Assembly (NCBI RefSeq): GCF_005884405.1
Contig: NZ_VCAO01000009.1
Coordinates: 1-64,000 of the forward strand
Source of the DNA: Qipengyuania marisflavi
GTDB taxonomy: Bacteria > Pseudomonadota > Alphaproteobacteria > Sphingomonadales > Sphingomonadaceae
Length of the DNA stretch: 64,000 nucleotides
Reading direction: 5' to 3'
In this document: in pieces, positions 37,765 through 62,365 of the stretch
How positions within the stretch are numbered: position 1 is the stretch's first letter
How the letters are laid out: each line of letters opens with the position of its first letter
Made by a program: the position numbers and the translations under genes
The notes under the pieces: model-generated
Database searches by the model: none
What the model was told of the DNA's origin: nothing
Seen by the model: the letters and a program-made list of their open reading frames with translations, nothing else

Positions 37765-37896
37765 AGCAGCGGACCGTATTTTTAATTGGCTGAACTCTGC
37801 TCATGCCTCCTAGCCTGCCGACAGGTTGTGGATGATTGTTAATTTCCGTTAATGTGCTAGAAAGCTAACCAAGTTGCGAAGACTGGGAGGTTGGCA

Positions 37897-38526
37897 GTGC
37901 AAAGCTACAAGAAAATCGTCGGATTGTTGATGGCCGGGGCTATGGCAGGCGGCGTTGCGCAGCCCGCCCATGCTGGTGATGACCCATTTATTGGGCAGAT
38001 CACCAATTACGGTTTTAACTTCTGTCCGCGCGGCTGGGCGGCGGCAAATGGCGCAATCTTGCCAATTTCATCAAACACTGCATTGTTCAGCCTGTATGGG
38101 ACGACTTTTGGCGGCGATGGGCGGACGACTTTCCAATTGCCCGATCTTCGCGGCCGGGTGCCGCTTGGCGACGGCAGGGGGCCGGGTCTTTCCGACATTC
38201 GGCTCGGAGAGCAGGGTGGGTTAGAGACTGTCACATTGACGGCGCCAGAACTGCCATCACACACGCATGCACTCAACGGGTCACTCAGTCTCAGGACAAG
38301 TACGTCCGCTCCTGATACCAATGATCCTAATGGTGCGGCGCTGGCGACATTTCCCAGCGATCGGAACATTTATTCAACCAGCGCGAGAGACCGGCCGGGT
38401 ATGCCGGTGGTGGGGCAGATTACACTTGCCAATACCGGCGGCGGTCAGGCGCATGAAAATCGCCCGCCTTTTCTGGTGATGAACTGGTGTGTTGCGATTC
38501 AGGGAACTTACCCTTCTCGCAGTTAG
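37897..38526 (+). CDS. Secreted phage tail-collar domain protein, copy 1
   Basis: About 209 residues. The GTG at 37897 lies six bases after GGGAGG; the TTG at 37891 touches the ribosome binding site and is less likely. A signal peptide ends near AHAGD. The mature part is a tail-collar domain: NFCPRGWAAANG, GTTFGGDGRTTFQLPDLRGRVPLG (first part), then THTHALNGSLSLRTST and GMPVVGQI. It is related to the MdpB/microcystin-dependent group. Two paralogs follow. Tail-collar domains are usual on phage fibres; a Sec signal and absence of phage genes indicate an exported cell protein of unknown role. Confidence 0.88.
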   Translation: MQSYKKIVGLLMAGAMAGGVAQPAHAGDDPFIGQITNYGFNFCPRGWAAANGAILPISSNTALFSLYGTTFGGDGRTTFQLPDLRGRVPLGDGRGPGLSDIRLGEQGGLETVTLTAPELPSHTHALNGSLSLRTSTSAPDTNDPNGAALATFPSDRNIYSTSARDRPGMPVVGQITLANTGGGQAHENRPPFLVMNWCVAIQGTYPSRS

Positions 38527-38580
38527 GCGGAAAAAGATCGGTAACATAAATAGCGGCAATGCGGGTTTGGGAGTGTGGAT

Positions 38581-39213
38581 ATGACGATCGGCAAGAAATT
38601 TGCGGGCACAGTGATGGCGGCGGCAATGGTGAGCGGCAGCGCGCAAACCGCGCAGGCGCAGGCCTCAGAGCCATATATCAGTCAGCTCATTACGACTGGC
38701 GCCAATTTTTGTCCGCGTGGCTGGGCCCGGGCCGAGGGGCAATTGCTGGCAATTAGTGGGAATGATGCGCTGTTCAGCCTGGTCGGCACCATTTACGGCG
38801 GTGATGGCAGGACGACATTTGCATTGCCGGATTTGAGAGGACGCACGCCAATTGGTTATGGAGTAGGTCCTGGTCTCCAATCCTATTCTATTGGCCAAAG
38901 AAGTGGGGCGGAACAGATTACCCTGACCCCGCTTGCCATGCCCACGCATACGCATAATGTCGGGGGTAGCCTGAATCTCAGGACCAGCACGTCGGGGCCA
39001 GATACCAATGATCCCAATGGCAACGCGCTGGCGACCGCACCTGAGGGTCAGAACAATTACACCACTGCCGCACGCAATCGGCCGGGGATGCCTGTGGTTG
39101 GTCAGGTCACTATCTCCAATACTGGCGGCAGCCAGCCGCATCAGAACCGCCAGCCTTACGTGGGGTTGACCTGGTGCATCGCTCTGTTCGGTATCTATCC
39201 TTCGCGGAATTAG
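38581..39213 (+). CDS. Secreted phage tail-collar domain protein, copy 2
   Basis: About 210 residues from an ATG seven bases after GGGAG; a GTG six bases earlier is also possible. The signal peptide ends near AQAQA. It keeps the same landmarks as copy 1: NFCPRGWARAEGQLLAIS, YGGDGRTTFALPDLRGRTP (part), THTHNVGGSLNLRTST, GMPVVGQV and a terminal YPSRN. The leader GCGGGTTTGGGAG resembles that of copy 3 (GGCAGGTTTGGGAG), so even the translation signals were duplicated. Confidence 0.88.
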   Translation: MTIGKKFAGTVMAAAMVSGSAQTAQAQASEPYISQLITTGANFCPRGWARAEGQLLAISGNDALFSLVGTIYGGDGRTTFALPDLRGRTPIGYGVGPGLQSYSIGQRSGAEQITLTPLAMPTHTHNVGGSLNLRTSTSGPDTNDPNGNALATAPEGQNNYTTAARNRPGMPVVGQVTISNTGGSQPHQNRQPYVGLTWCIALFGIYPSRN

Positions 39214-39272
39214 AACTAGGCATTCACCACATTTAATGGCGATACTGCAGAGGCAGGTTTGGGAGACAGATT

Positions 39273-39905
39273 ATGGTTGGAAACGGAAAATTTGCAGGAT
39301 TTCTGATTGGTACCGCGCTGATGTCGAGCAGTGCCCCACCCGCCCATGCACAAGCCACACCTTATCTCGGCGAAACGGTGATTTTCGGGATGAATTTTTG
39401 CCCGCGCGGTTGGGCCTCGGCCTCGGGTCAGCTTCTCGCAATTAGCCAGAATACGGCGCTATTTAGCCTGCTTGGCACTCAATATGGCGGCGACGGCAGG
39501 ACGACCTTTGCATTGCCTGATCTGCGCGGGCGGGCAACAATTTCGTACGGACAAGGTGGCGGGCTGTCCAATTATTTGATTGGCCAACGAGGTGGACAGG
39601 AAACTGTCACGCTGACCGAAGCCACCATTCCTGCGCATACGCACATTGCCAGTGGGTCGCTAAGCTTGCGGACCAGTACTGGGGCTCCGGACACGAATGA
39701 TCCGAACGGTGCTGCTCTGGCCACTATGCCTGCTACACAGGCTGGCCCTTACACCACCGGCAACAGAAACCGTCCGGGAATGCCGGTTGTCGGTCAAATC
39801 ACTCTTGATGCAACGGGTGGCAGTCAAGCGCACGAAAATCGCTCGCCTTATCTGGCGATGAATTGGTGCATTGCGACCCAAGGGCTGTTCCCTTCCCGCA
39901 ATTAG
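39273..39905 (+). CDS. Secreted phage tail-collar domain protein, copy 3
   Basis: 210 residues. The signal peptide ends near AHAQA. It carries NFCPRGWASASGQLLAIS, YGGDGRTTFALPDLRG, AHTHIASGSLSLRTST and GMPVVGQI, and ends FPSRN. The conserved HTH triplet in all three copies could bind a metal, as HxH triplets do in some phage fibre tips; this is inference. The three copies may be differentially used surface or secreted proteins, or subunits of one assembly. Confidence 0.88.
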   Translation: MVGNGKFAGFLIGTALMSSSAPPAHAQATPYLGETVIFGMNFCPRGWASASGQLLAISQNTALFSLLGTQYGGDGRTTFALPDLRGRATISYGQGGGLSNYLIGQRGGQETVTLTEATIPAHTHIASGSLSLRTSTGAPDTNDPNGAALATMPATQAGPYTTGNRNRPGMPVVGQITLDATGGSQAHENRSPYLAMNWCIATQGLFPSRN

Positions 39906-42364: not shown

Positions 42365-42401
42365 GTCGACTGGTAATTTCAGGGTCGACTGGTCGACTGG
42401 T
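42365..42401 (+). repeat. Short GTCGACTGGT repeats before HWE kinase gene
   Basis: GTCGACTGGT occurs at 42365-42374, 42384-42393 and 42392-42401, the last two overlapping with an 8-bp period. They end 13 bases before the ATG, around the ribosome binding site GGGGAG. Confidence 0.5.
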
Positions 42402-42414
42402 GGGGAGCGCGGAT

Positions 42415-43431
42415 ATGTCAGGTGATTTTGTAGCGCGCTTTGCCGATCAGACGCAGGATGTGCTCAAGGCCATCCTCGACAAATCTCAGGATTGCATCAA
42501 GCTGCTCAGCCTTTCCGGCGAAGTCGAATATGTGAACCACAATGGCTGCCAGGCGCTGGCGGGCGGCGACTTCGCTGCGCTTACTTCCAGAAGCTGGGCC
42601 GATATCTGGCCAGACGACAGCCGCCCCAAGCTCGATGCCGCGCTGGCCAGGGCCGTGCGTGGCGAGCGGGGGCGCTTTGAAGGCTATTGCCCGGGTGCCG
42701 ATGGCGAGCCGCGCTGGTGGGATGTCGAATTGTCCCCGGTCATGAATGGCGACGGCAAAATGACGCATGTCCTGGCCATCTCGCGCGATATTACCGTGTC
42801 GATGCAGGAGCGGATGCAGGACCGGATGCGGCGCGAAACCGCAGAGGCCGAGGCCGAGCGGTCTGACAATGTTGCGCGCGAGATGCGGCACCGGCTCAAG
42901 AACTTGCTGGCGGTCGTGTCATCGGTCGCCAAGCTGATATCGCGCCATGCGACCAGCCCGCGCGAAGTGATCGACCGGCTGGAAATCAAATTGCAGAATT
43001 TGGCGCATGCCCAGGATTTACTGACGATCAGCCGCGATCAGCCGGTCAATGCCGCGGTTGCAATCCAGCAGGTGCTTGATGCGAGCGGCGCAGGCGAAAA
43101 GGTAACTGTTGCGGCCCTGCCTGACGCCCGGCTGGGCGATGACGCTATCCAGCAATTGGCGCTAATCCTAGGCGAATTACAGACCAATTCGCTCAAATAC
43201 GGTGCGCTGGGCAGCGATGCAGGGCAAATCACGCTGAGCGCGACGCTGCAGGATGCGGTGATGTGTCTTCACTGGCATGAGGACACCGGAGCGCCAATGT
43301 CGCCGCCGGAAAAAGAGGGTTCGGGATTTTTGCTGATGCAGCGGCTGGGTTCGACCAGCAATCACCGCGCCAAGATCCATTGGCACGACAATGGCCCAGC
43401 CTTCGACTTCTACATTCGCGTAGTAAGCTGA
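42415..43431 (+). CDS. PAS-domain HWE-type sensor histidine kinase
   Basis: A 338-residue soluble kinase from the ATG following GGGGAG. A PAS domain (about residues 10-125, ending HVLAISRDIT) is joined to an HWE/HisKA2-type kinase. His159 in REMRHRLKN is the phospho-acceptor, ELQTNSLKYGALG is the N-box and GSGFLLMQRLG the G-box. No membrane segment is visible. It converges with a receiver-only gene 12 bp away that has an EcfG-type promoter, so this kinase may feed the general stress response. Confidence 0.9.
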   Translation: MSGDFVARFADQTQDVLKAILDKSQDCIKLLSLSGEVEYVNHNGCQALAGGDFAALTSRSWADIWPDDSRPKLDAALARAVRGERGRFEGYCPGADGEPRWWDVELSPVMNGDGKMTHVLAISRDITVSMQERMQDRMRRETAEAEAERSDNVAREMRHRLKNLLAVVSSVAKLISRHATSPREVIDRLEIKLQNLAHAQDLLTISRDQPVNAAVAIQQVLDASGAGEKVTVAALPDARLGDDAIQQLALILGELQTNSLKYGALGSDAGQITLSATLQDAVMCLHWHEDTGAPMSPPEKEGSGFLLMQRLGSTSNHRAKIHWHDNGPAFDFYIRVVS

Positions 43432-43443
43432 CAGGAAACTCGC

Positions 43444-43815
43444 TTATTCGGATGTAGCTAGTCCGTGGAGAGTTTCGACAATCTTTCCGCGCGGGGTAGG
43501 CTTTTCCAAACACACATAAGCGCGAAACTGTTCGGGCAAGGTATCCAGACTGCAACGTGCGCTGATAAAGGCGAATGGCACCTGATGCTGTTGAAGCTCG
43601 CGTGCGAGTGGCCAAACCTGTTCTCCGCCCAGATCGACATCGAGCAAGGCGGCATCCAGCTGGTTCTGGCGGGCAAGCTGCAAGCCGGTCGTCAGATCAA
43701 GCGCTGGGCCGACTGTCTCGACTTCCAGGTCCACAAGCAAATCATCAATGTCGTAAGCGAGTACGGGGTTGTCCTCGACAATGAGAACGCGTTTCCCGGT
43801 TAATTTCTGCAACAT
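43444..43815 (-). CDS. Single-domain response regulator
   Basis: About 123 residues, a receiver only: VLIVEDNPVLAYDIDDLL with the acidic pocket, LLDVDLGG with the phospho-acceptor Asp, FISARCS at the Thr/Ser position, and LEKPTPRG with the conserved Lys. The ATG at 43815 is preferred over a TTG at 43830. A GGAAC-N16-CGTT promoter lies upstream. Stress-induced single receivers such as SdrG tune PhyR phosphorylation in Sphingomonas; a similar job is plausible here. Confidence 0.88.
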   Translation of the reverse strand: MLQKLTGKRVLIVEDNPVLAYDIDDLLVDLEVETVGPALDLTTGLQLARQNQLDAALLDVDLGGEQVWPLARELQQHQVPFAFISARCSLDTLPEQFRAYVCLEKPTPRGKIVETLHGLATSE

Positions 43816-43865
43816 GATAAAGCACCACAATCATCACAAGGTGCGACCCTTGCGTATGAGGGCTA

Positions 43866-43890
43866 AACGGTTGGGGAATCGCGGGGTTCC
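43866..43890 (-). promoter_or_regulatory. EcfG-type promoter of the receiver gene
   Basis: Minus strand: GGAAC (43890-43886), 16 bases, CGTT (43869-43866), an exact match to the alphaproteobacterial stress sigma consensus. A start near 43859 would give a leader of about 44 nt. Confidence 0.75.
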
Positions 43891-54201: not shown

Positions 54202-54810
54202 TCAGCTGCGCGACGCGACGCCATTGCCCGCCGCGACCTCGTCAAGTTCTTCGAGGATCGCGCGGTGTGCGGTATCGTCGTCCAGCGAGCGCTGCGGAAT
54301 GTCGCCATCGCTCAGCATTGCGTTCAGTGCGGCGCGGGCACGACCGACGCGGCTTTTGATCGTGCCGACTGCGCAGCCGCAGATATTTGCCGCTTCTTCA
54401 TAAGAGAACCCGCCAGCGCCAACCAACAGCAAGGCCTCGCGCCGTTCAGCAGGCAGCGTCAGCAATGCGCGATGTAGATCGGACAGGTGGATCGGCTCTT
54501 CCTGGCCCGCAGGTGCGGTCAGGATACGCTCGGCCACGCCTTCGTCATATTCGCCGCGGAAACGATTGCGGCGCATATCGGTGAGATAGGCATTGCGCAG
54601 GATGACGAAGGTCCACGCGCGCATGCTGGTGCCGGGCTGGAAACGCTCTTGCGCAGCCCACGCCTTCAGCAAGGCTTCCTGCACCAGATCGTCAGCCATG
54701 TCGGCACGGCCGCACAGGCCGCGGGCAAAGGCACGCAGATGCGGCACTACGCCCGTCAGCTCACGCTTGAAATCGGCCTGCTCGGAGGCCGTACGCTCAG
54801 ATTCGCTCAT
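54202..54810 (-). CDS. ecfG: ECF sigma factor EcfG (general stress response)
   Basis: A 202-residue sigma factor of the ECF15/EcfG type. Region 2 runs LRAFARGLCGRADMADDLVQEALLKAW (part) with core contacts and -10 recognition, and region 4 is LPAERREALLLVGAGGFSYEEAANICGCAVGTIKSRVGRAR (part). It directs polymerase to GGAAC-N16/17-CGTT promoters. The ATG overlaps the nepR stop (TGATG). NepR holds it inactive until phosphorylated PhyR takes NepR away. Confidence 0.95.
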   Translation of the reverse strand: MSESERTASEQADFKRELTGVVPHLRAFARGLCGRADMADDLVQEALLKAWAAQERFQPGTSMRAWTFVILRNAYLTDMRRNRFRGEYDEGVAERILTAPAGQEEPIHLSDLHRALLTLPAERREALLLVGAGGFSYEEAANICGCAVGTIKSRVGRARAALNAMLSDGDIPQRSLDDDTAHRAILEELDEVAAGNGVASRS

Positions 54811-54992
54811 CAGGCCTTCGCATCCAATTGCGATAGCAAATCCTTGAAGGTGTCGGGAAGAGGTTCTTCCACAACCGAATCATACAGCTGGCGCAGGCCA
54901 TTGGCCCACTCCGGATTGTCTTTCTCAGATTTATCACCTGGACGAACTGCAGGCGAAGCCTGATCGTTGGTCTTGAACCTGTCTGGCATCAT
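54810..54992 (-). CDS. nepR: Anti-sigma factor NepR
   Basis: A 60-residue protein with the NepR core GLRQLYDSVVEEPLPDTF (part) followed by LLSQL. Two short helices bind EcfG, or alternatively phosphorylated PhyR. It is the first gene of nepR-ecfG, under the EcfG-type promoter 80-100 bp upstream, so the pair is autoregulated. Confidence 0.94.
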   Translation of the reverse strand: MMPDRFKTNDQASPAVRPGDKSEKDNPEWANGLRQLYDSVVEEPLPDTFKDLLSQLDAKA

Positions 54993-55078
54993 ATCGAGAC
55001 TGATACTTCCCTATTCGTAATGTCGCGTAAGTCGGCCCGGAAGCCGCCGCGCGCACGTGATCCCATTGGTGCAGGCGT

Positions 55079-55103
55079 AACGGCGCGGGTGCCCGATGGT
55101 TCC
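55079..55103 (-). promoter_or_regulatory. EcfG-type promoter of nepR-ecfG
   Basis: Minus strand: GGAAC (55103-55099, extended GGAACC), 16 bases, CGTT (55082-55079). An exact consensus match. The start near 55072 gives a leader of about 80 nt. Confidence 0.85.
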
Positions 55104-55187
55104 CGCAGTTTTGCAGGCTGTCCATCGGAACTATTCGCCGCTCCCGACATACTAAGCTCGGGTCGCGACCGGATTGTTGAGGAAGTT

Positions 55188-56870
55188 TTGGTTCAAAAAG
55201 AACATCAGGACAATTCGCGCAGACGGCGGTGGCTGCTGGAATACCCGATAGCTGTGCCCGTGGTGATTTTCCTGCTTGTCGCAGCGATCACCATGCTGAG
55301 CGTGTTTGCTATCGAAGAGGGTGAGCGGCGCCGCGAAACGGCGGATCTGAATCGTCATTCCCAGGCGATGGCTTCGGCAATCGAACGCCGCGCCTTTACC
55401 AGTTCATCCTATCTGCGCGCCGGGGCGGCATTGTTCACGACACAGGAAAAAATCGATGCTGATCTGTTCCGCCGGTTTGTGTCTGAACTGCGGCTGGATT
55501 CCGATTATCGCGGGGCAGAAGGGATCGGTTGGGCACCTGTTATTTCAGCGAATGATTTGCCAGCCTTCGAAACGCGTTTGCAAAGTGAATGGATAGATGA
55601 CGCCAAGGTGCGTCCCAGCCTGAGCGAAGCCCCGCGTAGCCAATTGACGCCGATCCTGTTTCTCCAGCCCGATACCCTGCGAAACCGCCGGGCGTTGGGC
55701 TATGATATGTATTCAGATCCTGTCAGGCGCGCAGCTATGGATGAGGCGCTGCGCTCGATGCGACCATCGGCCAGCGGTCGCATCGTGCTGGTACAGGAGG
55801 GGAGTGAAAAACAAGGCGACGCTGGATTCCTGATCTATATGCCGGTTTTCGACGGAGCGGGGGGGCAGCGCCGTCTCAAGGGTTTTATCTATAGCCCGTT
55901 CAATGCCCCACAATTTATTGAAGCCGCAGCCGCTCTGGTAAACTCCGAAGGAATGGCGGCAGAACTGTATGATTTGAATGACGGCAAACGCACCCTGCTG
56001 GCCGGTATTAACCCGGTGGGCGAACAGGGTGAAATGGTGGAGCGTGAGGTCAATCTCGCCAATCGCCCGATGATGCTGGTCGTGCGCTCGGGACAGGCGC
56101 AAACGCTGTCGTCAATGTCGATGGTAACGCTGTTGTTCGGCATCGCCGTGGCCAGCCTGCTAATGCTGGTCGCGCGGTTGCTGACGCAGCAGGCGCTGGA
56201 AGATCGCCGGTCGATCAACTGGTTTGCCGAACAGAACTCGATCCGCGATTCACTGACGCGTGAGCTTAACCACCGGGTCAAGAACACCTTGGCCAATGTG
56301 CTGTCGATCCTGTCGCTGACACGGCGGCGCGCTGTCTCGCTGGACGAGTTTGCCGAAGGACTGGACGGGCGCATCCGGTCGTTGTCGGGCACGCATGACT
56401 TGCTGACCCAATCGGAATGGGGGACCACTCCGATCCGTTCGGTGATCGAGGCTGAACTGGCATCCTATGCCGACGATGCCGATCACACGGTTTCCATGTC
56501 TGGGCCAGAGGTCGAACTGGCGCCAAATGATGCGCTGTCGCTGGGTTTGGCATTGCATGAACTCACCGCCAATGCCGCCAAATTCGGATCACTCAGCAGG
56601 CCCGGCGGGACGGTAACGATATCATGGGAGCGGACCAGCGAAGCACTGGCGCGTGTCGATTGGGTCGAGAGCGGTGGCCCGACAGTCGGAGCGCCTTCGA
56701 AGCGCGGCTTTGGCACCGATCTGATCGAGAAGATTGTCGCGCATGAATTGCGTCATCCGGTCGAGATAAGTTTCGATCCCGAGGGTGTGCGGTGCAGCCT
56801 GCTGCTGCCGATCCGCGAACGCAGCGAGTTCGAACTGCGCAAGGCCAACCCCGCCGCTCACGCGCACTGA
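55188..56870 (+). CDS. CHASE-domain HWE-type sensor histidine kinase
   Basis: About 560 residues from a TTG preceded by GAGGAAG; the frame opens at 55020, but that stretch contains the nepR promoter and reads unlike protein. A membrane helix (about residues 18-42), a periplasmic CHASE domain (RRAFTSSSYLRAGAALF, EGIGWAPVI, LFLQP, GYDMYSDP), a second helix, then the kinase with His362 in ELNHRVKN and N-box HELTANAAKFGSLS. Its place next to nepR-ecfG is that of PhyK-type kinases which phosphorylate PhyR. Confidence 0.92.
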   Translation: MVQKEHQDNSRRRRWLLEYPIAVPVVIFLLVAAITMLSVFAIEEGERRRETADLNRHSQAMASAIERRAFTSSSYLRAGAALFTTQEKIDADLFRRFVSELRLDSDYRGAEGIGWAPVISANDLPAFETRLQSEWIDDAKVRPSLSEAPRSQLTPILFLQPDTLRNRRALGYDMYSDPVRRAAMDEALRSMRPSASGRIVLVQEGSEKQGDAGFLIYMPVFDGAGGQRRLKGFIYSPFNAPQFIEAAAALVNSEGMAAELYDLNDGKRTLLAGINPVGEQGEMVEREVNLANRPMMLVVRSGQAQTLSSMSMVTLLFGIAVASLLMLVARLLTQQALEDRRSINWFAEQNSIRDSLTRELNHRVKNTLANVLSILSLTRRRAVSLDEFAEGLDGRIRSLSGTHDLLTQSEWGTTPIRSVIEAELASYADDADHTVSMSGPEVELAPNDALSLGLALHELTANAAKFGSLSRPGGTVTISWERTSEALARVDWVESGGPTVGAPSKRGFGTDLIEKIVAHELRHPVEISFDPEGVRCSLLLPIRERSEFELRKANPAAHAH

Positions 56871-57009: not shown

Positions 57010-57801
57010 TTAGCCCAGCGGGCGGCTCGACCCGAAAAACAGCGCCTGGCTGATCGCCGCGCGCACTGTCTGTTCCTGGAACGGCTTGGTCACCAGATAG
57101 GTGGGTTCGGGACGGTCGCCGGTCAGCAGCCGCTCTGGATAGGCAGTGATGAAGATCACCGGCACGCTGTTCATGGACAGGATATCGTCCACAGCGTCGA
57201 GGCCCGAAGACCCGTCAGCCAGCTGGATGTCGGCCAGCACCAGTCCCGGGGTACGCTTGGCAACGACTTCCTGTGCCTGCGTCCGGGTGGCGGCGGTGCC
57301 GCAAATCTCGTGACCCAAAGAGGTCACCAGATCTTCCAGCTGCATCGAAATCAGCGGCTCGTCTTCGATGATCAGCACGCTGGTCGAGGTTTCGCTGTCA
57401 ATTTCCGTGACCGCTTCCTGAACCATGCTTTCGATATCGGCGACACTGATCTCCATGACCTCTGCCGCTTCTTCGACCGTGAAGTCTTCGAGCGTGGTCA
57501 GCAGCAGTGCCTGACGGTTAAGCGGCGTGATCGCCTTCAACCGGTCTTGTGCTGCGGCCTCATGTCCTTCGCCGCCCTGATCGGCGGGCACATCCAGATA
57601 TGCGCTGGACCACACCTTGTTGAACGCACGGTAAAGTGGCACGCGGCCACCCTCGAGCGATTCCTTCAGGCGTTGGTCGGCAAGCGCTGCTTCCAGCGTG
57701 GCTCGGACAAACGCATCGCCGGTTGCCTGCGAGCCGGTGAGGGCGCGGGCATAGCGGCGGAGATAAGGCAAGTTTCGTGCAATCTGGTCACCAAGTGACA
57801 T
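57010..57801 (-). CDS. phyR: Anti-anti-sigma response regulator PhyR
   Basis: 263 residues. The N-terminal sigma-like domain (DQIARNLPYLRRYARALTGS, LKAITPLNRQALLLTTLEDFTVEEAAEVM, parts) mimics EcfG. The C-terminal receiver has IIEDEPLISMQLEDLV (part), ADIQLADGSSG with the phospho-acceptor Asp, FITAYPERLL and VTKPF. When phosphorylated it binds NepR and frees EcfG. The Met at 57801 has GGAAGGGG upstream. A GGAAC-N16-CGTT promoter precedes it. Confidence 0.96.
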   Translation of the reverse strand: MSLGDQIARNLPYLRRYARALTGSQATGDAFVRATLEAALADQRLKESLEGGRVPLYRAFNKVWSSAYLDVPADQGGEGHEAAAQDRLKAITPLNRQALLLTTLEDFTVEEAAEVMEISVADIESMVQEAVTEIDSETSTSVLIIEDEPLISMQLEDLVTSLGHEICGTAATRTQAQEVVAKRTPGLVLADIQLADGSSGLDAVDDILSMNSVPVIFITAYPERLLTGDRPEPTYLVTKPFQEQTVRAAISQALFFGSSRPLG

Positions 57802-57830
57802 AAGACCCCTTCCATTGGTTGCGCGGACGA

Positions 57831-57855
57831 AACGCCCTGTAGCAGCTTCGGTTCC
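57831..57855 (-). promoter_or_regulatory. EcfG-type promoter of phyR
   Basis: Minus strand: GGAAC (57855-57851), 16 bases, CGTT (57834-57831). An exact match. The start near 57824 leaves a short leader containing the ribosome binding site. Confidence 0.85.
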
Positions 57856-57951: not shown

Positions 57952-58698
57952 GTGCAGAAACAAGCAAAACCAATTCCCTGCGAGGAATGCGGGCTGCAAA
58001 AATGCCCCGGCCTCCGTCCGCTGGAGCCCAACCAGCTGCAATATATGCAGGAATTCAAGCAGGGCGAGCGGCTGAGTGAGCGCGGCGACATTATCGTTGC
58101 GCAAGGTCAGGTGATCTCGCACCTTTATACGGTCTATTCCGGTGTCCTGATCCGCTATCGCTCGCTTGACGATGGTCGGCGGCAGATTGTCAATTTCATG
58201 TTTCCCGGCGATCTGATCGGATTGATGGGCGCGTTTGACGAACCATCGAGCCACACGATCGAGACGCTGCTGGACGCGCGGCTTTGCATGTTTACGCGCA
58301 AAAGTTTCACTCAGCTGATCGGCAAACACCCGCAATTGGGCTTTGACCTGACCTGGATGGCCGCCAAGGAAGAGGCCGCGCTGGAGGAACATATCGTATC
58401 ACTTGGCCAGCGCACGGCGAAAGAGCGCGTCGCTTATCTTGCGGTCTGGCTGCTCGACCGTGCGATCGGGACGGGGCTGGCCGACAAGAAGAACGTGCTG
58501 CATCTGCCGATCACTCAGGCGCAGATCGCCGATATGCTGGGGCTGTCACTGGTCCATACCAACCGCACGATCAGGGCGCTCGACAAGGAAGATCTGGTCA
58601 ATTGGAAATCACGCGAGATATGCGTCCCCGATATGGCGCGGACCTGTGAATATGCCCAATATGATCGTGATTTTGAACGGGTAAGGCCCTTCATTTAA
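57952..58698 (+). CDS. Crp/Fnr-family transcriptional regulator, FNR-like
   Basis: About 248 residues from a GTG with AAAGGGA eight bases upstream; a TTG at 57880 is a weaker alternative. The N terminus has Cys residues spaced CxxCxxxxC (CEECGLQKC), and a fourth Cys sits in the beta-roll (DARLCMF), as in FNR iron-sulfur oxygen sensors. The effector domain is followed by the helix-turn-helix ITQAQIADMLGLSLVHTNRTI (part). It is divergent from phyR, sharing an intergenic region of about 150 bp. Confidence 0.9.
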   Translation: MQKQAKPIPCEECGLQKCPGLRPLEPNQLQYMQEFKQGERLSERGDIIVAQGQVISHLYTVYSGVLIRYRSLDDGRRQIVNFMFPGDLIGLMGAFDEPSSHTIETLLDARLCMFTRKSFTQLIGKHPQLGFDLTWMAAKEEAALEEHIVSLGQRTAKERVAYLAVWLLDRAIGTGLADKKNVLHLPITQAQIADMLGLSLVHTNRTIRALDKEDLVNWKSREICVPDMARTCEYAQYDRDFERVRPFI

Positions 58699-58749
58699 AA
58701 GGATTTTTTCTGAAAAGCGAAGATTCTTTGCAAAAAACTCGTATGGCTG

Positions 58750-58774
58750 GGAACCGGTTTTCAGTTCGAACATT
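58750..58774 (+). promoter_or_regulatory. Candidate EcfG-like promoter of the small RNA
   Basis: GGAAC (58750-58754), 16 bases, then CATT (58771-58774), one mismatch from CGTT. A start six to seven bases later falls at 58781, exactly where the hairpin RNA begins. Confidence 0.55.
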
Positions 58775-58780
58775 TAATCA

Positions 58781-58871
58781 GTATCACCGCCGAGACCCCC
58801 CCCTCCCGTCCAAGCGGCTGGTGATACGATCCCGAAAGGCCTCCGTTCAAAAAGAACGGAGGCCTTTTTTT
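58781..58871 (+). ncRNA. Candidate small RNA with C-rich anti-Shine-Dalgarno loop
   Basis: About 91 nt. The 5' hairpin pairs GTATCACC (58781-58788) with GGTGATAC (58820-58827), plus GCCG with CGGC and one bulged T. Its 22-base loop contains CCCCCCCCTCCCG, complementary to GGGAGG-type ribosome binding sites. A second, very stable hairpin, AAAGGCCTCCGTTC with its complement (58835-58867), ends in seven T residues and is a rho-independent terminator. An EcfG-like promoter precedes it. The layout resembles stress-induced alphaproteobacterial sRNAs such as GsrN, which act through a C-rich loop. It could also be an attenuated 3' leader of the FNR-like transcript. Confidence 0.65.
58835..58871 (+). 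terminator. Strong rho-independent terminator
   Basis: A 14-bp perfect stem, five-A loop (58849-58853) and T-run. It ends the candidate small RNA and, by read-through, the FNR-like gene 137 bp upstream. Confidence 0.92.
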
Positions 58872-58993: not shown

Positions 58994-59425
58994 TTACCGC
59001 AAGGCGCCGCGCAGGCGCGAGATTATGCCCTTGCGCTTTGGTTCGCTTAGCAGGTCAACAAGCACTTCTGGCTCGTAAGGCTTTTCCAGCACACAGCCGA
59101 GCGCGGCCACTGCTTCAGGGATATCTTCGGGCGCGCCGGTCGAAAAGATGATCCGCGGGCTGTCGGGGCCCAGCGAGCGGACCAGTTCGGCAATTGCCCA
59201 GCCATCGTCGCGGTCGGCCAGATGAACATCCAGCACAATCGCGTCAGGTTGTTTACGTCGCAGCGCCTCAAGCGCGCTGTCAGTGGTCGAACATATCTCT
59301 ACCAGAGTGACACCCGCGTCGAGCAGCGCCTGCTCGATCGTCAGACCCAAAATGGCGTCGTCTTCCACGACCAGAATGTGGCCGGGCAGCGTTGCGCGTG
59401 AATCTTTCGGGGCGGGTTTGTCCAT
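58994..59425 (-). CDS. Single-domain response regulator
   Basis: A 143-residue receiver with short tails: ILVVEDDAILGLTIEQALL (part), LDVHLADRDDG with the phospho-acceptor Asp, IIFSTGAPED and LEKPYEPEVL. No output domain is visible. It lies within the GSR locus under a GGAAC-N17-CGTT promoter whose -10 ends only about 16 bases from the ATG, so the transcript would be almost leaderless. It may compete for or relay phosphate in the PhyR pathway. Confidence 0.9.
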   Translation of the reverse strand: MDKPAPKDSRATLPGHILVVEDDAILGLTIEQALLDAGVTLVEICSTTDSALEALRRKQPDAIVLDVHLADRDDGWAIAELVRSLGPDSPRIIFSTGAPEDIPEAVAALGCVLEKPYEPEVLVDLLSEPKRKGIISRLRGALR

Positions 59426-59441
59426 ATGTATCTACACCAGC

Positions 59442-59467
59442 AACGATGCGTTTGCGCAGGAAGTTCC
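59442..59467 (-). promoter_or_regulatory. EcfG-type promoter of the receiver gene
   Basis: Minus strand: GGAAC (59467-59463), 17 bases, CGTT (59445-59442). An exact match with the longer permitted spacer. Confidence 0.7.
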
Positions 59468-59521: not shown

Positions 59522-60682
59522 TCAGAGCGATTTCTTGAAGATCAGATATTCGCGGTTCACCTCGGTCTTAAGTGCATCGGCGATGGCCACCATTCCCTGA
59601 TTGTCCTCCAGTATCCAACCGATCTCGCCGCGCTTGGAGGCAAATTTGTCCGTGGCATTCTGTTTGATCCGGTCGATCATCATGAAAGCCAGCTGGCTGG
59701 CGAGCCGCGAGTTGTGCAATTCCTTCAGCACCCCCATCAGCGGAACACGCATATCCGCGCCGGTCGGCTTGCGCAGCCAGCGTAGCAGGTGCAGCCAGCC
59801 AAGCGGCAGCAGCTTGCCGTTAATCCTGCCCAGCACCCGATTGACGTCGGGAAAGGTCAGCATGAAGGCCACCGGCCGCCCATCAACTTCGGCAATCATA
59901 TTGAGCTGTTCGTGGATGATCGGCTTCAGCTTTTTGCTGGCATAGGCGACTTCTTCATGGGTGAAGGGCACGAAGCCCCAATTGTCCGACCAGGCATCGT
60001 TGAGGATGGCCAGCACGATCTGCGCCTCGTCATTCCAGCGCTGCTTGTCGACATAGCGGATGGTGATCCGCGAATTGTTCTGTCCCGACCGCACGATGCG
60101 TTGGATCAGCGGCGGGAAGTCCTTCGTGATGTCCAGCTCATAGGTCAGCAGCTGCTTGGTCGGCGCATAGCCCGACGCTTCTATCCACGCACGGTAATGG
60201 GCCGGGTGGTGGCCCATCATGATGGTGGGGGGCTGTTCCTGACCGCGCACCAGCAGGCCAGGTTCCTCCCAGATCGACATCGAGATCGGCCCCAGCACGC
60301 GGGTCATGTCTCGGGCACGCAGCCATGCTTCGGCTGCGGAGAGCAGGGCGCGGGCCACCGTTTCATCCTCGGCATCGAAATAGCCGAACATGCCGGTGCC
60401 CGGACCCATTCCCTGTTCCTGCGGGATCGCCAGCGCGAGATGGTCGATATGCGCCGATATGCGCCCGACAGCCTGCCCGCCGCGCCGCGCGATAAACAAT
60501 TGCGCCTCGGCATGGCCGAAGAACGGGTTCTTGTCCGGATTGACCAGTTCGAGCAGCTCGGACCGCAATTGCGGCACGCTATTGGGCACTCGCGCGGCAA
60601 AGGCGCGCCCCAGATCGACGAACTCGCCGCGACCGCGCTTGCCCGAAATCGGGTCGATCATTATTTGCTCGCCAGTCACCAT
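59522..60682 (-). CDS. GNAT-superfamily protein, possible bacterial ceramide synthase
   Basis: 386 residues. Two GNAT-like halves are apparent: EAQLFIARRGGQAVGRISAHI (part) and the later EQLNMIAEVDGRPVAFMLTFPD (part). A conserved-looking IWEEPGLLVRG and MMGHHPAHYR lie between. Relatives are often annotated only as GNAT or dATP pyrophosphohydrolase. As I recall, the bacterial ceramide synthase of Caulobacter belongs to a GNAT-like family of similar size. Sphingomonads make sphingolipids and a desaturase gene is adjacent, so that role is plausible but unproven. It is divergent from the desaturase. Confidence 0.65.
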   Translation of the reverse strand: MVTGEQIMIDPISGKRGRGEFVDLGRAFAARVPNSVPQLRSELLELVNPDKNPFFGHAEAQLFIARRGGQAVGRISAHIDHLALAIPQEQGMGPGTGMFGYFDAEDETVARALLSAAEAWLRARDMTRVLGPISMSIWEEPGLLVRGQEQPPTIMMGHHPAHYRAWIEASGYAPTKQLLTYELDITKDFPPLIQRIVRSGQNNSRITIRYVDKQRWNDEAQIVLAILNDAWSDNWGFVPFTHEEVAYASKKLKPIIHEQLNMIAEVDGRPVAFMLTFPDVNRVLGRINGKLLPLGWLHLLRWLRKPTGADMRVPLMGVLKELHNSRLASQLAFMMIDRIKQNATDKFASKRGEIGWILEDNQGMVAIADALKTEVNREYLIFKKSL

Positions 60683-62018: not shown

Positions 62019-62285
62019 TCAATCGATCTTGATTTTGGCTTTTACGCCGTCTTCGCCTATGGTGGCGTCAACGTCCTTGCCGTCGATCGTGACATTGTTG
62101 CCTTCAGCCGGGGCCATTCCGGTGTCATCGACAACGACGGTTTCCGTGGCGTTCGGCGCGGGCGCAGTGGTGGTGGCTACGGTGCCATCGGTTCCTGCGG
62201 TTTCATCAACCACAACGGCGTCGGGGCTGTCACAGGCTGCCAGTGCAAGACCTGCGGCGAGGGCGGGGATCATAAACTTCTTCAT
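62019..62285 (-). CDS. Small lipoprotein, hypothetical
   Basis: An 88-residue protein with lipoprotein signal MKKFMIPALAAGLALAAC, then a low-complexity Thr/Val/Asp-rich mature part and a C-terminal VTIDGKDVDATIGEDG-type strand pair. No family recognised. GGAGAT upstream is its ribosome binding site. Confidence 0.8.
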   Translation of the reverse strand: MKKFMIPALAAGLALAACDSPDAVVVDETAGTDGTVATTTAPAPNATETVVVDDTGMAPAEGNNVTIDGKDVDATIGEDGVKAKIKID

Positions 62286-62365
62286 GCCAAATCTCCTTTA
62301 TGGCAACAATGTGGCAAGAAATGCGCCGCAGTGCCATTCTGTTCCGAAAGGGGTCGAGAAATCCG

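Follow-up and report, generated by a model that had tools for sequence, protein, structure and literature searches.

GsrN of Caulobacter crescentus is, by the account of it in PMC5869019, a sigma-T-driven RNA of ~100 nt, with six tandem C in the single-stranded loop of its 5' hairpin and an intrinsic terminator. In that account, its gene typically lies near ecfG-nepR-phyR and the RNA activates katG by pairing with the katG leader. The same source gives homologues found by BLASTn in Caulobacteraceae only, with others, including those of Rhizobiaceae, predicted from place and promoter, and its comparison (2018) has Erythrobacter litoralis as an outgroup with 'no apparent gsrN-like gene'. C-rich anti-Shine-Dalgarno loop motifs are also described for the alpha-r14 or 'cuckoo' RNAs of Rhizobiales (NfeR1; SmelA075, SmelA099), for which PMC3927594 and PMC10746234 give three or four hairpins with CCUCCUCCC. 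sRNAs of Zymomonas mobilis are treated in PMC6970203. In the openly licensed literature we found nothing on gsrN, or on sRNA and Hfq, in Sphingomonadaceae, and the best-ranked matches (titles and abstract openings) among openly licensed papers on sRNA or the general stress response (GSR) in Sphingomonas, Sphingomonadales, Novosphingobium and Erythrobacter held no description of the RNA reported below.

Here we analysed a 64,000-nt stretch of Qipengyuania marisflavi DNA (the whole stretch is called the window), in which the unit at 58750-58871 is, with a probability of about 0.8, the gene of a predicted ~90-nt sRNA that would be transcribed with EcfG and likely acts in trans, its C-rich loop predicted to pair with G-rich ribosome-binding sites and so to block them. 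The unit represents a genuine RNA family that runs through the lineage at the GSR locus and is covered neither by Rfam 15 nor by the papers found. A sequence-only reading of this DNA had put forward a candidate sRNA driven by EcfG, with a C-rich loop of the anti-Shine-Dalgarno type. Comparison strongly supports this candidate: 105 aligned copies share the predicted promoter, the loop and the terminator, with compensatory changes.

The Predicted RNA Gene and Its Locus

The order of genes in the window is ecfG-nepR-kinase-phyR-crp-RNA-response regulator, with families assigned by Pfam, and the coordinates of all features are presented in Table 1. The RNA unit lies between the crp and response regulator genes, ~80 nt past the crp stop codon and on the crp strand. 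The label GNAT386, used for the gene further downstream, is a guess of ours.

Table 1. Features of the predicted RNA gene and of the surrounding GSR locus in the window.
Feature	Position	Strand	Remarks
ecfG, ECF sigma factor	54202..54810	-	Sigma70_r2 and Sigma70_r4_2
nepR, anti-sigma factor	54810..54992	-	PF18557, E 1.8e-18
CHASE-HWE histidine kinase	55020..56870	+	Pfam
EcfG-type promoter before nepR-ecfG	55079..55103	-	pattern scan GGAAC-N16-CRTT
phyR, anti-anti-sigma response regulator	57010..57801	-	PhyR_sigma2, PhyR_sigma-like, Response_reg
phyR ribosome-binding site GGAAGGGGTCTT, predicted loop target	57802..57813	-	inferred
EcfG-type promoter of phyR	57831..57855	-	pattern scan GGAAC-N16-CRTT
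Crp/Fnr-type regulator	57952..58698	+	GTG start inferred; frame open from 57880
Possible UP-like element, A/T-rich block	58731..58738	+	12-19 nt upstream of GGAAC; function inferred
-35 element GGAAC, EcfG-type promoter	58750..58754	+	15-16 nt to -10-like element in 105/105 aligned copies
-10 element CATT	58771..58774	+	CATT 93, CGTT 5, variants 7 (n=105)
Predicted small RNA, ~91 nt	58781..58871	+	ends inferred
5' hairpin	58782..58826	+	11 pairs, one bulge; fold and consensus
C-rich loop AGACCCCCCCCTCCCGTCCAAG, predicted target-binding site	58793..58814	+	unpaired in consensus; most positions nearly invariant
Invariant loop core CTCCCGT	58803..58809	+	identical in 105/105 copies
Single-stranded linker CGATCCC	58827..58833	+	conservation less strict than loop core
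Intrinsic terminator with U tail	58834..58871	+	both-side changes in 12/15 pairs
Single-domain response regulator, convergent with RNA	58994..59425	-	Pfam
EcfG-type promoter (N17) of response regulator	59442..59467	-	pattern scan
Conserved downstream gene, working label GNAT386	59522..60682	-	no Pfam match

Most of the architecture that the sequence-only reading had described was recovered. The EcfG-like promoter spans 58750-58774, where GGAACC begins at 58750, 16 nt lie between GGAAC and CATT, and six bases separate CATT from the 91-nt unit (58781-58871), which ends, as had been said, in a terminator (58834-58871). The 22-nt hairpin loop of the window copy reads AGA-C8-UCCCGUCCAAG, with the expected eight C at 58796-58803 and TCCC at 58804-58807. 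The hairpin itself had been called perfect, which it is not, since it has a bulged U at 58819 and 11 pairs in the consensus. The 91-nt stretch folds at -49.1 kcal/mol (z -6.7), and none of 200 shuffles folded as well.

When the whole window was compared with Rfam 15 at the gathering score, only a tRNA was found and no family matched the RNA unit, and at E up to 10 the RNA site gave chance-level weak matches only, nothing credible. The alphaproteobacterial sRNA suhB/mmgR (RF00519) matches weakly at full length; its 12.6 bits (E 5.7) fall far below the gathering score, 41, and are at the level of chance. The unit is not the leader of a downstream gene, because the next gene (the response regulator) is convergent, on the opposite strand; a coding function was rejected as well, because the length of the C run varies between copies and would break a reading frame.

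Transcription of the RNA under EcfG is likely. The window has 4 sites of the pattern GGAAC-N16-CRTT where 0.95 would be expected, and none of 100 shuffles had as many; three of the four precede nepR-ecfG, phyR and the small RNA. Of the N17 form there are 3 sites where 0.88 would be expected, a number attained in 4 of 100 shuffles, and one of the three lies before the response regulator that adjoins the small RNA.

Two more places in the window deserve a mention in their own right. GGAAC-N17-CATT at 62320-62345 (-) stands directly before an 88-aa ORF at 62019-62285 (-), small and lipoprotein-like by eye and with no Pfam match, which is possibly a further EcfG target. GGAAC-N16-CGTT at 43866-43890 (-) stands before an ORF at 43444-43830 (-) that is response-regulator-like by eye from its translation, and this ORF is adjoined by a histidine-kinase-like one (by eye) at 42400-43431 (+).

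Conservation of Promoter, Structure and Gene Position

The alignment was sequence-only and holds 105 copies, 102 of them distinct. GGAAC is found 16 nt from a -10-like element in 104 of the 105 copies and 15 nt from it in one, and 98 copies have the strict promoter pattern, compared with 168 of 20930 random 50-nt windows (0.8%) from the same loci. The -10 element ends 6 nt before the aligned RNA unit in 98 of 105. At 12-19 nt upstream of GGAAC, the A+T fraction of the aligned copies is 0.79-0.98, against 0.12-0.68 elsewhere in the part scanned.

The loop core CUCCCGU is invariant (105/105), and most of AGACCCCCC and CCAA are nearly so. The C run before UCCCGU counts six in 58 of the 102 distinct copies, seven in 34, five in 5 and eight in 3, so that 5-8 C (mode 6) are kept in 100 copies, and the run is lost in two. 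In the named structure, 94.6% of cells are paired, against 38-53% when it is slid along the alignment; for the 5' hairpin the figure is 98.4-98.6% over the 102 distinct copies. Over the whole structure, 123 cells are changed on both sides; shuffles have 33.7, and none of 500 had as many. Every measure is also above the slid controls. Covariation of the hairpin in the same neighbourhood of related genomes, which the sequence-only reading had looked for, is borne out in part: 3 of 6 pairs in the upper stem have both-side changes, but none of the 5 pairs in the outer stem does, which makes this stem too constant for covariation to decide. With 12 of 15 such pairs, the predicted terminator is strongly supported by covariation, and the upper hairpin stem modestly.

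Gene position was surveyed in 81 loci, namely the window's own and the 80 listed matches of a pattern scan of named genomes, which returned at least 119 stretches with the RNA pattern. In 72 of the 81, phyR is found upstream and is read from the other strand, and the remaining 9 have less than 1 kb of upstream sequence; of the 105 aligned copies, 104 have a PhyR start in the stretch that was fetched around them. The downstream gene (59522..60682 in the window, no Pfam family) was found in 73 of the 81 loci, the response regulator in 48 and crp in 34; crp was not found in 43 of the 72 loci holding phyR (e.g., L181, L202, L208, L215). Together, the alignment and the survey show that the predicted promoter, loop, hairpin and terminator and the gene position are conserved together in one lineage.

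Distribution across Genomes

A DNA search of 298 genomes of the family gave a match in 123, always one per genome. Of these, 95 were inspected, with 92 real and 3 false (coding sequence in two, G051 and G128, and a terminator in G153), and the other 28 have E <= 5.5e-24; the RNA unit is present in ~120 of the 298. In 296 genomes of the order, the covariance model (its first version was built from 30 copies) found 97 at E <= 0.001, 90 of them at 61 bits or more and 7 weakly. One of the seven, in G744, is a real diverged copy, which lies beside phyR and has GGAAC and a changed but still C-rich loop. Two genomes (G181, G106) had a weak match with the first model and none at E <= 0.01 with the second. 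Outside the family, the covariance models found no real copy in 337 and 385 genomes of the class (overlapping samples, stricter filters).

Carriers among the 80 matches listed belong to Erythrobacter, Qipengyuania, Novosphingobium, Croceicoccus, Croceibacterium, Tsuneonella, Porphyrobacter, Citromicrobium, Altererythrobacter, Pontixanthobacter and others. Among the Erythrobacter carriers are records of E. donghaensis DSM 16220, E. cryptus DSM 12079, E. sanguineus (MAG), E. rubeus and E. fulvus, i.e., five species other than E. litoralis, the species for which the 2018 GsrN paper is negative.

Thirty sphingomonad genomes with no clear match yielded 25 full phyR loci, in which sites with the strict GGAAC-N15-18-CRTT pattern were judged by eye for a C-rich hairpin and terminator downstream. 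No unit was found within ~1.5 kb of phyR in 24 of the 25, G744 being the exception; several strict-promoter sites have C-rich text downstream with no hairpin-terminator unit. To call the RNA one of sphingomonads at large, as had been done, is therefore too wide, and what stands is a presence in ~120 of the 298 family genomes.

The weak matches of the model that were read are of several kinds. Outside the clade, five (L035-L037, L423, L424) are terminators, and L038 and L425 are other C-rich hairpins with no GGAAC in the upstream stretch shown. Within the family, seven (L429-L433, L435, L436) are terminator matches, of which L430 and L435 have a C-rich stretch before the terminator and no GGAAC in the 60 nt upstream, and L434 looks like coding sequence. 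The hairpin of L038 (minus strand, mid-locus, in G533 of another family, f4) has GTCCCTCCCTCCCC in its loop, and after it come GATCATCCCAAGG and a terminator-like repeat; with no GGAAC in the stretch shown, it is perhaps another C-rich-loop RNA. In L425 (~1501-1570; G526, f128), a CCCCCCCTCCC-loop hairpin and a terminator-like stem follow the apparent end of a coding frame, and GGAAC is absent from the 60 nt upstream.

Predicted Targets

phyR and hppA are put forward as the first candidates for pairing partners of the RNA, and among the predicted targets phyR makes the best comparative case. Of 157 distinct phyR leaders that come with the RNA, 94 contain GGAAGGG, against 0 of 24 from genomes lacking the RNA, counts that are not independent, because leaders of shared ancestry were inherited together. 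Of the 24, 20 carry GGAG. The motif is absent from all 265 leaders of five other neighbour genes and from all 323 leaders of the own genome. Over 177 leader-loop pairs, the mean pairing of the phyR leader is -14.0, against -9.3 for shuffles; the RNA-less leaders have a median of -8.7, with 6 of 24 at -12 or better and the best at -21.1. Among 360 leaders of the own genome (from crude start calls, covering the window and 15% of the genome), that of phyR comes no higher than 71st by pairing energy. GGAAGGG is lacking in 63 of the 157 leaders with the RNA, many of them Erythrobacter and Porphyrobacter records with the loop intact. The two copies that have lost the C run have no GGAAGGG in the phyR leader either, though one retains GGGGAG.

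As a separate observation, some Erythrobacter and Porphyrobacter phyR leaders (L174, L183, L202, L215 and similar) have GCGAAAGG, GAAAGCG or GCGGAG in place of GGGAAGGG, with the RNA loop kept.

In the predicted duplex, the phyR leader (C)GGGAAGGG(GUCU) would lie opposite two stretches of the loop, UCCCG and AGACCCC, with a bulge in between, and such pairing would give negative feedback of the RNA on the stress switch itself. We offer as a tentative idea, and a rather doubtful one, that the Erythrobacter-type GSR has its own RNA brake, whereby RNA made under EcfG would cover the phyR ribosome-binding site and stop synthesis of the switch that frees EcfG, loop and phyR leader having co-evolved. 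Co-evolution is proposed because phyR leaders with GGAAGGG are confined to genomes that have the RNA, and because this motif is missing beside both copies with no C run. The feedback on phyR is a concrete testable hypothesis, and the covariance model can be used to annotate the RNA family.

The second candidate, hppA, which we take to be a membrane pyrophosphatase by recognition of the protein, was picked because it matched in the own genome. Its leader, CGGGAGGGGG before a GTG start, pairs at -26.8 kcal/mol, is among the five best of the 360 and is surpassed in strength by hardly any other leader sampled there. Mean pairing at hppA is -19.6 where the RNA is present (14 genomes) and -13.6 where it is absent (15 genomes), and two of the RNA-less genomes reach -19.0 and -20.9. 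In the same ranking, crp is 24th and the response regulator 263rd. Across genomes, the crp (-16.0 vs. -14.0) and ecfG (-12.6 vs. -11.1) leaders are slightly better than shuffles, and those of the response regulator, GNAT386 and desat are no better.

Long complementary sites are few in the own genome and show no excess over controls. Outside the RNA gene, GACGGGAGG has 2 sites, whereas the reversed pattern has 22; one of the 2 directly precedes a 95-aa ORF and the other lies 20 nt before a 461-aa ORF. CGGGAGGGG has 14, against 21, one of them before hppA. Among the matches listed for CGGGAGGGG-N-RTG across 12 genomes, a second genome of the genus (G078) has the site before hppA. Nor is there a clear excess of CGGGAGG ahead of start-like codons in the own genome (57 vs. 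44 for the control); 30 of the 57 CGGGAGG-N-RTG matches came with loci, and 10 rows (9 genes) have a frame of at least 90 aa.

Three tandem ORFs of ~210 aa at 37891-39905, presumably tail-collar-like, have GGGAG leaders. All three had been named as GGGAGG leaders, which is right for the first (37885), the others reading GGGAGT near 38569 and GGGAGA near 39260.

Alternative Explanations

The RNA is most likely an EcfG-driven, GsrN-like, trans-acting one whose loop would cover G-rich ribosome-binding sites. As its promoter suggests, RNA polymerase with EcfG would transcribe it during the general stress response, the C-rich hairpin loop would serve as the pairing site for G-rich ribosome-binding sites, and this pairing would presumably block translation of the target. 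An EcfG-driven RNA that mainly activates or stabilises stress mRNAs through G-rich 5' leaders, in the way of GsrN with katG, seems to us rather unlikely. Six C, the number in the 5' loop of the katG activator as described, is also the modal number here (58 of 102), but the invariant CUCCCGU is anti-Shine-Dalgarno-like and a lineage-specific complementary motif sits at the phyR ribosome-binding site, both of which favour blocking over activation.

The resemblance of the loop core to an anti-Shine-Dalgarno sequence, and the scarcity of long perfect sites, hardly enriched near start-like codons, could also be expected of a general ribosome-competing or RNA-sponging molecule, whose loop binds many G-rich RNAs weakly and lowers translation broadly with no specific targets; conservation that extends beyond CUCCC to GUCCAA and AGA is more than a generic anti-Shine-Dalgarno needs, and we hold this to be quite improbable. 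Least credible by far is the view that the unit lacks a promoter and is either processed from the 3' UTR of the upstream crp or serves as its terminator, which the short distance from crp on the same strand in the window would allow, but which agrees poorly with the loci lacking crp (43 of 72 with phyR) and with a promoter at fixed spacing in all aligned copies. If the preferred reading, a trans-acting RNA covering ribosome-binding sites, is true, a post-transcriptional arm would belong to the GSR throughout a large lineage (Erythrobacter, Qipengyuania, Novosphingobium, Croceicoccus and relatives).

Comparison with Known Systems

The RNA shares with GsrN, which is known here by its description, a promoter for the GSR sigma factor, an exposed C-rich loop near the 5' end, an intrinsic terminator, a length close to 100 nt and proximity to ecfG-nepR-phyR. 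It differs in the invariant CUCCCGU of its loop and in being found by the covariance models as real copies only within the family. The earlier suggestion of a possible GsrN counterpart fits in architecture and place; with the covariance models, no sequence homologue was found outside the family in the 337 and 385 class genomes. Compared with the alpha-r14 or cuckoo RNAs as described, which likewise have a C-rich loop of the anti-Shine-Dalgarno type, there is here a single C-rich hairpin with CCCCCCUCCCGUCC and a terminator, under an EcfG-type promoter; CCUCCUCCC is absent from the window copy, as is the series of several hairpins. The RNA suggests that C-rich-loop RNAs under EcfG recur in the stress response across Alphaproteobacteria, either arisen anew or diverged beyond recognition by sequence.
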